From: Thermoproteota archaeon
GTDB lineage: Archaea; Thermoproteota; Thermoprotei_A; Sulfolobales; Pyrodictiaceae
Reading direction: 5' to 3'
DNA length: 64,000 nucleotides
Assembly (NCBI GenBank): GCA_013153145.1
Contig: JAADEY010000012.1
Coordinates: 1 to 64,000 of the forward strand
The translations under genes were made by a program, and so were the position numbers. Numbering within the stretch: the first letter of the stretch is position 1; every line of letters begins with the position of its first letter. Below the pieces are notes generated by a model that did no database searches, was not told where the DNA came from, and saw only the letters and a program-made list of their open reading frames with translations. This document shows, one piece after another, positions 1-19,644 of this stretch.

Positions 1-548
1 AGAGCCACCACTCCGCATGGCGTCACACCCTCCGACCTGAGCACTGCTATGCACGACTCGCACGGACACTCCATGCCGGTCAATGGGCACAACGGCCTCA
101 ACGGGTCCTCCAGCAATCCCTCCTCATACATCCTCACCAACAGCTCCACACGCCTCTCCTGCACAACACTGCCACCGTATGCCGCCGCGAGCTCGTTAAG
201 CCTCCTGGCTGCGGCGCGTACAGTCTCGCCATCCACGCGGAGTATCTGAGCCAGCCTAGCATACGCCAGGAGTAACTCGGCAGAAACAGAGCCGCCTCCT
301 AGAACTATGCCGCCAACCACGTACACATACTTCTCGCCGAGCTCATGGGCGATGTCGGGGCCTCCGGAGATGCAGATGAGCCCCCGGATGGAATGACAAA
401 CCCTCATCGCCTCGGCCATGGCCTCTTCATCGGCTGCCGAGACGATGGCGACGACCCAGCGCCCATCCTCGACCGCCTCCGGGGGGCCAGCCACCGCCCC
501 CCGGCTGGTCTTGAGCTGGGGGGTGAGGGCCTGGGACAAGGCTCTCAC
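1..548 (-). CDS. Hypothetical Cys-rich protein (3' end cut by window edge)
   Basis: The minus-strand frame is open from the window edge to a GTG at 548, giving about 182 residues so far. The first two thirds are alpha/beta-like (hydrophobic strands VVAIVSA and YVYVVGG with Gly-rich turns); the visible C-terminal part has a Cys cluster spaced C-x6-C-x-C-x2-C, then a further Cys, which suggests a metal or Fe-S site. Start choice: a TATA-like CATATAG at 574-580 lies about 29 nt upstream of the GTG, as for a leaderless mRNA. I do not recognise the family. Codon use matches real genes here (AGG, CTC, GAG). The true C-terminus lies outside the window. Confidence 0.6.
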   Translation of the reverse strand, partial: MRALSQALTPQLKTSRGAVAGPPEAVEDGRWVVAIVSAADEEAMAEAMRVCHSIRGLICISGGPDIAHELGEKYVYVVGGIVLGGGSVSAELLLAYARLAQILRVDGETVRAAARRLNELAAAYGGSVVQERRVELLVRMYEEGLLEDPLRPLCPLTGMECPCESCIAVLRSEGVTPCGVVA

Positions 549-573
549 AGGTATTAAGAGGGAAGGATACAAG

Positions 574-839: not shown

Positions 840-975
840 GGCACCATAAACAATCCCTAGGCATAGACCATGAGCCCCGAAAACAAGGCGGGTCACGGGG
901 CTCGGCAATCCCCTCCCAGCCGGTCACAGCCCGCCCGGAGGGGCTCGACGCCCCTGGGCTCCCGACGGTCTCCTC
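840..975 (-). ncRNA. Candidate structured RNA, family unknown
   Basis: Downstream of a TTTTAAAT element (997-1004) on the minus strand come three successive hairpins: a 6-bp stem with loop GAGGAG, a 6-bp AGGGGC/GCCCCT stem with a 5-nt loop, and an exact 7-bp GAGCCCC/GGGGCTC stem with an 18-nt loop. GC content is much higher than in flanking intergenic DNA. It lacks the conserved GAGGAAAGUCC of RNase P RNA and the GGAAGG motif of SRP RNA. Both ends are estimates. Confidence 0.25.
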
Positions 976-996
976 ACCGCCCCCCATGCCGGTCTC

Positions 997-1047: not shown

Positions 1048-1401
1048 TTGCCTAGGGATGAGGTGTTGTGGAGGAAGGCTCAGTGCCTGTACAGGGCTGC
1101 TGTTGGTGCTCCTAGTGTGGAGTTGAAGGCTTTGTTCGCGGTTATGGCTGCCCGGCTTGTTGTGCGTTCTCTGCTTGAGGGGCGTGGTGTTAGGGTTAGG
1201 CCTGGTAGGTTGAGGCTTGGTGTTATGCTTAGGTTGCTTGGTGAGAGGGGTTGTAGTGTTGAGGGTGTGTTGGGGGAGTGGGGGGAGGCTGTTGAGCTTG
1301 CTGATCGTGTCTGGTTTGAGGGTTTGAGGCCTGGTGTTGAGGGTGTTGGGCTCCTGCTTTCTCTTGTTGAGGGGTTGTTTGGGTTTCTTGGGTCTTGTTA
1401 G
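1048..1401 (+). CDS. Small helical hypothetical protein
   Basis: 117 residues from a TTG start, with GGTGG just upstream and a TATA box about 45 nt upstream. The sequence is almost wholly helical, rich in Leu, Val, Arg and Gly, with a conserved-looking start (DEVLWRKAQCLYRAA). A loose resemblance to HEPN-type helical bundles is an impression only: no RxxxxH catalytic motif is evident. Codon use (GTT, CTT, AGG) is typical of a real gene. Its 3' end overlaps that of the convergent DUF190 gene by 4 nt. Function unknown. Confidence 0.6.
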   Translation: MPRDEVLWRKAQCLYRAAVGAPSVELKALFAVMAARLVVRSLLEGRGVRVRPGRLRLGVMLRLLGERGCSVEGVLGEWGEAVELADRVWFEGLRPGVEGVGLLLSLVEGLFGFLGSC

Positions 1402-1736
1402 TGGTGTTTGCCTCCGTGGCCGTAGAAGACTACTTCTACCTCCTCTTTGGTTATTAGGCCTTCCTTGACGACCTCTTTTATCTTTGGGAGTATCTTCTCT
1501 ATCTTCTCGGGCTCGTCCACGGTCTCTATTACTAGGGGTAGGTCTTCTGATAGGCGGAGGACTGCTGGTAGGTGTATCATGCTGTGGCTCCCGTAGCCTG
1601 CTAGGCCTTTGAGGACTGTTGCTCCTCTTATGCCGTTGCTTCTTAGGAGGCGTAGTATGTAGAGGTAGAGTGGTGTGCCGTGGTACTTGTCTGATTCTCC
1701 TATGTATATGCGTAGGCGGATCCATTTAGAGGCCAT
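1398..1736 (-). CDS. DUF190 family protein (PII-like)
   Basis: 112 residues matching the DUF190 family, small proteins with a PII-like ferredoxin fold. Typical features are the N-terminal strand WIRLRIYIGESDKY, the segment GIRGATVLKGLAGYGSHS, and VIETVDEPEKIEKILP. The family is often found next to fluoride channels, as here: the ATG at 1736 overlaps the end of crcB by 11 nt, so the two are translationally linked. It is probably an accessory or regulatory subunit of fluoride export; its biochemical role is not established. Confidence 0.88.
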   Translation of the reverse strand: MASKWIRLRIYIGESDKYHGTPLYLYILRLLRSNGIRGATVLKGLAGYGSHSMIHLPAVLRLSEDLPLVIETVDEPEKIEKILPKIKEVVKEGLITKEEVEVVFYGHGGKHH

Positions 1737-2124
1737 GCCTGTACACCGTTAGGGCTAGTGTTCTCCCGATGTAGATGCCTATGAAGCCTAGTATTAGGCT
1801 TGCCGCGACGTATAGTATTGCTGAGAGCTGTAGGCCCTCGGCCCATAGCTCGAAGCCCTCGAAGGAGAAGGTTGAGAAGGTTGTGAATGAGCCGGCGAAC
1901 CCGGTTGCTATTAGGAGTCGCTGCTCCCTTGTGAAGACGTCGTAGAATATTGTTGAGTATAGGACGAAGCCTAGTAGTATGCAGCCCAGGAAGTTGACGA
2001 CTATTGTTCCTATTGGGAACTGTAGGCCGTCCTGGACTATCTTTGAGAGTATCCAGCGTGAGACCGCCCCTAGGAAGCCGCCGACGCCTACTAGTAGGAG
2101 GTCTCTGAGTGGGCCTGGCAGCAC
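1726..2124 (-). CDS. crcB: Fluoride ion channel/exporter CrcB (Fluc)
   Basis: 132 residues with four hydrophobic membrane segments, the usual length for one Fluc subunit, which works as a dual-topology dimer to expel fluoride. Family signatures are visible: GGFLGAVSRWIL at the N-terminus (about residues 15-26), GTIVVNFLGCILLG with the conserved Asn (about 39-52), and the GFAGSFTTFSTFSFE segment (about 76-90) that lines the pore. The GTG start gives a short N-terminus normal for the family. It overlaps the downstream DUF190 gene. Confidence 0.95.
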   Translation of the reverse strand: MLPGPLRDLLLVGVGGFLGAVSRWILSKIVQDGLQFPIGTIVVNFLGCILLGFVLYSTIFYDVFTREQRLLIATGFAGSFTTFSTFSFEGFELWAEGLQLSAILYVAASLILGFIGIYIGRTLALTVYRHGL

Positions 2125-19525: not shown

Positions 19526-19584
19526 GACGTGCAAACTACATCACTGGCCCTCCTACCTGCTGGCTGTATTGGCGGGTGAGGAGA

Positions 19585-19609
19585 AACCCCGTCTCTTGAC
19601 CCCGGGGTT
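19585..19609. terminator. Hairpin just after moeA
   Basis: AACCCCG (19585-19591) and CGGGGTT (19603-19609) pair exactly over 7 bp with an 11-nt loop, 36 nt beyond the moeA stop on the minus strand. Confidence 0.3.
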
Positions 19610-19644
19610 GCGGGGGGTGATGTATGCACCGGTTGCCGACGCCG

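Follow-up and report, generated by a model that had tools for sequence, protein, structure and literature searches.

A predicted C/D box guide sRNA on the minus strand of a GC-rich intergenic region in a Pyrodictiaceae genome

What does a GC-rich stretch of archaeal DNA encode when no gene can be recognized in it? The question is raised by positions 573–1047 of the window, the 64 000-nucleotide stretch of DNA analysed here, which opens a contig of assembly G000 (1.19 Mb, 79% complete). The first-pass annotation described a gene-free region of about 500 bp and proposed a possible non-coding RNA within it. ORF analysis gives 475 bp without a recognizable gene, and an RNA gene is indeed predicted there. 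It belongs to the opposite strand and to a well-known class, and is recognized by boxes and guides rather than by hairpins. The minus strand at 983–897 is very probably an archaeal C/D box guide sRNA for 23S rRNA, a reading to which we assign, from sequence, a probability of about 0.88. The predicted function is to guide fibrillarin to 2′-O-methylate 23S rRNA. C/D sRNAs are well known, and this gene adds an example to that kind.

The intergenic region and its hairpins

Four features define the setting.

3–572, minus strand: ORF, left border of the 475-bp gap
1048–1401, plus strand: ORF, right border of the 475-bp gap
872–903, no strand: GAGCCCC/GGGGCTC hairpin of the first-pass annotation, overlapping box D and the 3′ terminal stem of the sRNA; unconserved
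997–1004, no strand: TTTTAAAT, the clearest TATA-like site; promoter status predicted from sequence

The two ORFs are divergent and flank the sRNA. Neither has a Pfam, NCBIfam or PHROG family above threshold, and they have almost no match among 57 relatives; the plus-strand ORF has a single weak one (E 0.0086, in G001). Positions 840–975 have a GC content of 0.68, which 3.5% of the window's 136-nt tiles reach. The 64-kb window contains no tRNA. At 1398–2124 (minus strand), a DUF190 gene adjoins a CrcB-like gene of the fluoride exporter family, a pair present in all 12 fetched family loci with DUF190. This synteny stops short of 573–1047, and a search for serS gained no useful neighbour. A DNA similarity search with the whole intergenic region returned short matches only from 58 genomes. 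The best foreign match, 20 of 20 bases in G013, is the box C of a relative's sRNA.

The first explanation to be weighed is a plus-strand ncRNA of a new structured type, in which three hairpins follow a TATA box at 840. In its favour, no gene occupies this GC-rich region, and the hairpins are real. The exact stem GAGCCCC (872–878)/GGGGCTC (897–903) exists, and with a flanking G–C comprises 8 pairs around a 16-nt loop; perfect stems of at least 8 pairs with loops of 3–20 number 16 in the window. The imperfect inverted repeat at 897–954 is the window's second most stable 58-mer and is stable on both strands. The most stable, 475–532, lies mostly within the minus-strand ORF at 3–572. The fold of 897–954 is better than that of 199 of 200 dinucleotide shuffles, a count that applies to a region chosen after being seen. 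However, three consecutive hairpins cannot form together: 872–903 and 897–954 have 897–903 in common and are mutually exclusive, and the hairpins at 908–946 and 938–956 overlap over 938–946. Nor is the whole stretch unusually stable, since 840–990 folds like dinucleotide shuffles on both strands (z −0.32 on the plus strand, −0.99 on the minus strand). The further hairpins noted at 620–720 are chance-like (z −0.06; 91 of 200 shuffles equally stable). No Rfam family matches the region.

The relatives bear on this explanation as well. Conservation of the stems had been named as the check, and relatives were found that keep the minus-strand box C, guides and box D, not the GAGCCCC/GGGGCTC stem or the other plus-strand stems. 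One arm of that stem coincides with the end of box D and the 3′ arm of the terminal stem. The second arm falls beyond the RNA and, by eye, has no counterpart after box D at two related loci, L099 and L182. A plus-strand gene is very unlikely. Most likely, the hairpins are a by-product of the GC-rich terminal stem, spacer and guide of the sRNA, whose D guide can pair with its own spacer as part of the strongest hairpin in the first-pass annotation. No ACA follows the 897–954 hairpin on either strand, by eye, as would be expected of an H/ACA sRNA.

No good candidate was found for the TATA box that was thought to drive the hairpins from about 840. The site TTTTAAAT fits the plus-strand gene at 1048. 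As a promoter of the minus-strand sRNA it is possible but too close, its centre lying about 18–20 nt from the RNA start. Training a promoter model on genes of the window yielded no TATA motif, and the sequence offers no convincing promoter for the sRNA.

Another conceivable occupant is an RNase P RNA or SRP RNA that has diverged. RNase P RNA (RF00373) has no match in the window or in G000, yet it is present in 13 of 13 good relatives. Against this, Rfam gives no match in the window at gathering or relaxed thresholds, and nothing related in 500–1150 at E up to 10. The RNase P RNAs of the relatives match the full model and measure about 290–330 nt, and G000 is an incomplete assembly in which rRNA has no match either; both absences are probably due to its 79% completeness. 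The archaeal SRP RNA (RF01857) has no match in the window and is found in the genome on another contig, C31. The earlier judgement that neither RNA fits is borne out, and we give this explanation no credence.

Anatomy of the predicted sRNA

The predicted RNA has the following parts, in order from its 5′ end after the gene itself. R2 is a covariance model described below.

897–983, minus strand: C/D box sRNA gene, predicted core from stem to stem, 87 nt (R2 match, apparent orthologues L099 and L182, guide–rRNA pairing)
979–983, minus strand: 5′ arm of the terminal stem, GGGGC, pairing with 897–901; five stem pairs covary over 47 loci
971–977, minus strand: box C, GUGAGGA (consensus RUGAUGA), from sequence and a pattern search of 20 family genomes
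960–969, minus strand: D′ guide core, ACCGUCGGGA, pairing with G003 23S rRNA 1452–1461 with one G–U
955–958, minus strand: expected place of box D′, 12 nt after box C, reading CCCA not CUGA
940–954, minus strand: hairpin spacer GGGGC-GUCGA-GCCCC between D′ and C′, fold −12 kcal/mol
922–928, minus strand: degenerate box C′, UGUGACC, with place and UGAC core as in L095–L097, L099 and L002
907–916, minus strand: D guide core, GGAGGGGAUU, 10 Watson–Crick pairs with G003 23S rRNA 1484–1493
902–905, minus strand: box D, CCGA (consensus CUGA); in most of 47 loci its second base is the partner of box C's variable base
897–901, minus strand: 3′ arm of the terminal stem, GCCCC, from sequence and covariation over 47 loci

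Boxes C and D and the GGGGC/GCCCC terminal stem of the window sequence stand in kink-turn (k-turn) geometry. Box C has a single change from consensus, at the 3b position that pairs with box D. Box D also has one change, which matches that of box C, and the same is seen in most of the 47 loci. The putative boxes D′ and C′ are at the expected places but off consensus; at other loci D′ reads CUGA or CCGA at the same 12-nt spacing after box C. Hairpin-like spacers also occur, by eye, in L095–L097. Archaeal C/D sRNAs are usually 50–70 nt long (PMC7994747). What makes the window sRNA longer than usual is its spacer, which is complementary to its D guide; in the G008 and G003 orthologues, the stretches that align measure 75 and 76 nt. 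A free C/D descriptor gave four matches in the window and six in its reversed copy, hence no excess.

Comparison with known C/D sRNAs (2015; PMC4644070) brings out shared and divergent traits. Common to both are the terminal k-turn, a D guide with at least nine consecutive Watson–Crick pairs over the +5 site and, for the window RNA putatively, a second guide whose site lies within 100 nt on the same rRNA. The window RNA differs in box C (GUGAGGA, not RUGAUGA) and box D (CCGA, not CUGA), in D′ and C′ that are hard to recognize, in the hairpin spacer between them and in its length.

Relatives, apparent orthologues and the kink-turn

Rfam is blind to this gene, and likewise returned no match for 20 related loci; the covariance check proposed earlier led to relatives by way of purpose-built models. 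The first model, R1, was made from the single minus-strand window sequence, and its foreign matches were weak. The best of them, L082 (E 6.9e-5), was dropped as lying inside a coding ORF. The weaker matches L083 (0.006) and L087 (0.48) gave the lead: both lie between long genes and have GGCGGTGARGAGACCG in common. The layout of L083 is textbook-like, with GGGGC, GUGAAGA, a 12-nt guide, CCGA, GUGAGGA, a guide, CUGA, an extra A and GCCCC. With up to one mismatch allowed, a pattern derived from it matched 12 places, spread over 8 of the 20 family genomes; the backward control matched 5. Besides the window, seven of these places have an sRNA layout and lie between long ORFs; of the seven, one shares sequence with an antisense ORF of 95 aa and another is close to the end of its contig. 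The remaining four lack the layout by eye.

R2 was built from seven sequences. Its best matches are its own seeds, and its match at 897–985 is circular, the window sequence being one of them. At E ≤ 0.5, R2 has matches, the weak ones unvetted, in 31 genomes out of 58; these comprise 18 of the 20 family genomes and 13 of the 38 others. Forty matches were fetched. One of these, L164, has no convincing boxes. Family loci with the sRNA layout or R2 matches include L095–L099, L002, L102, L182 and others, all unannotated. They have the same terminal stem, boxes C and D and k-turn pairs as the window RNA; the D guide core is common to L099 and L182, whereas most of the others have different guides. 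Further C/D sRNA candidates in the family are indicated by R2.

L099 in G008 and L182 in G003, in another genus, are apparent orthologues of the window RNA. L182 (G003:C1:1323983–1324058) is matched by R2 at E 5e-9 without being a seed. The window/G008 alignment reads GGC.GTGAGGAGACCG..GGGAG ... GGAGGGGATT.CCGAGCC. Both orthologues adjoin a phosphomutase-like gene (named by eye), unlike the window RNA with its own neighbours. In open-access literature, judged by title and the start of the abstract, no paper on C/D sRNAs of Pyrodictium, Pyrolobus or Hyperthermus was found; subscription papers are mostly outside that scope.

An alignment of 47 R2 matches (A5) supports the terminal structure, within the limits of a sample that was fitted to that structure and is hence favourable. 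All seven terminal-stem and k-turn pairs show changes on both sides, and 93.6% of cells are paired, compared with 84.7% after shuffling and 33–63% when the structure is slid. At 3b:3n, formed by the variable bases of boxes C and D, the 46 lettered loci have 39 G–C, two A–U, one G–U and four non-standard combinations. Archaeal box C/D k-turns have a strong propensity to U:U at this position, according to Ashraf et al. 2017 (PMC5689011). As far as can be judged from sequence, the window RNA has the sheared G·A and A·G pairs and the G–C at 4b:4n of the k-turns described there, and differs in its G–C at 3b:3n. A Watson–Crick 3b·3n pair prevents folding in metal ions alone, according to PMC4382518.

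In a 400-kb sample of G003, the free descriptor found 24 matches (L204–L223 among them), 14 with G:C and 4 with U:U; the reversed sequence gave seven, one of them G:C. Samples of 200 kb showed no excess over the reversed control in G007 (7/7), G009 (4/4) and G026 (4/4), and little in G021 (5/2). Because of this, the claim for G–C at 3b:3n rests on G003 and on loci selected by the model. It is a hint of a lineage variant, from one genome, not a rule. If general, the variant would be of interest for k-turn folding and for studies of L7Ae; apart from it, the gene would be an ordinary housekeeping gene.

Guides, targets and the proposed mechanism

Ribosomal RNA genes were found in one of five genomes tried, G003, whose rRNA is the reference for all pairing. 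By the rule given in PMC4644070, a C/D guide makes at least nine consecutive Watson–Crick pairs over the +5 site; a double guide has sites within 100 nt, and the nine-pair rule is then relaxed to allow G–U. The window D guide makes 10 such pairs with AAUCCCCUCC in G003 23S rRNA, over the +5 base, its fifth base facing C1487, which a pairwise alignment equates with E. coli C1289. The D′ guide pairs with UCCCGGCGGU, its 10 pairs including the single G–U, and its fifth base lies opposite C1455 (E. coli 1258). This site is 32 nt upstream of the D site, a spacing within the relaxed double-guide rule. Double guides make up about half of known C/D sRNAs.

Controls and relatives put these matches in proportion. 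Ten pairs were also reached by 162 of 5000 shuffled D guides (3.2%), and the same level by 16 of the 502 15-mers that precede any CCGA in the window. The window D guide match, taken by itself, is only suggestive. It is the orthologues and the second guide that give the target assignment its weight. The window, L099 and L182 share one D guide core; it is complementary to a single 23S site, with 12 pairs in each orthologue. Pairing of the D′ guide within 100 nt of the D site was equalled by 12 of 2000 shuffled guides. In the orthologues the D′ guide reads CU in place of the window's UC, and 10–11 pairs can still form; a CUGA further on in the orthologues implies a different D′ guide, with 11–12 pairs near LSU 3095. 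The LSU region could be located in 26 of the 58 genomes. Of 22 that were examined, a set without G016 (a partial match from the family), 18 have an intact D target and 15 an intact D′ target; all five family members in the set have both. Across the fetched R2 loci, six without box D by pattern were excluded, and 17 of the 34 remaining D guides have at least nine pairs with G003 rRNA, compared with 11.8% of shuffled guides.

These figures also bear on the suggestion that a GC-rich intergenic stretch merely resembles a C/D sRNA by chance. Single tests are modest, as for the D guide, and GC-rich models draw false matches, such as the best foreign match of R1 inside a coding gene. Such coincidence is nevertheless extremely unlikely, given that box C, box D, the stem, two guides with sites 32 nt apart and two orthologues with 12 pairs all agree.

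The working of the predicted sRNA can be outlined as follows. (i) The RNA would be transcribed from the minus strand, and boxes C and D at its ends would fold into a k-turn closed by the GGGGC/GCCCC stem. (ii) L7Ae, Nop5 and fibrillarin would then bind, as expected from other members of the family. (iii) The guide before box D would pair with the 23S rRNA, where the window organism's own molecule presumably carries a site identical to that of G003. (iv) Fibrillarin would 2′-O-methylate the rRNA C that faces the guide's fifth base (C1487 in G003, E. coli C1289). (v) The D′ guide would perhaps direct a second methylation, at C1455, or only hold the rRNA. On this reading, an unannotated intergenic region in the genome of a hyperthermophile is accounted for, and 23S rRNA is predicted to be methylated at one or two sites.

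The spacer between D′ and C′ raises the question of whether the gene is active. At 929–954 (minus strand) it includes CCCCUCCG, which is also part of the 23S target of this sRNA, and seven of its bases are complementary to the D guide, a length equalled in 93 of 5000 shuffles and compared with three and four bases in the orthologues. In isolation, the D guide of the sRNA folds onto this spacer, so that the RNA can mask its own guide. A decayed copy, descended from a working gene and inactivated by loss of D′/C′ and by self-masking, would account for this insertion, for boxes D′ and C′ that are off consensus and for an RNA longer than usual. Yet box C, box D, the terminal stem and the 10-base guide core are intact, C′ is off consensus in both orthologues too, and the terminal stem is longer than that of the G008 orthologue. 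We consider decay quite unlikely. A more elaborate proposal would make masking a function: the target piece CCCCUCCG in the D′–C′ spacer, whose length exceeds that of the orthologous spacers, would lock the D guide until protein or heat opens the hairpin, and the lineage would have largely replaced U:U with G–C, making folding dependent on protein. This is a long shot.

The predicted guide sRNA at 983–897 is accompanied by further candidates. One lies in the window at 19568–19644 (plus strand), with GUGAGGA, CCGA and a GGC/GCC stem; it is matched by R2 at E 9e-6 without being a seed, and its guides have no nine-pair match in G003 rRNA. Two more belong to the same assembly, L162 (G000:C8:46225–46361) and L163 (G000:C12:3117–3261), whose D guides make nine pairs each with G003 SSU rRNA, near 662 and 983. 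In another group (L095, L096, L097, L002, L165–L169 and L171), the D′ guide can form 9–12 pairs at LSU 2059 and, in some members, the D guide pairs at LSU 2090. L095–L097 and L002 adjoin a TIP49-like gene (named by eye), and these sRNAs, unlike that of the window, pair with LSU 2059 and 2090. Finally, L098 in G003 is the same locus as L083 and L201, and its D guide makes 13 of 13 pairs with the organism's own 16S rRNA at 406.
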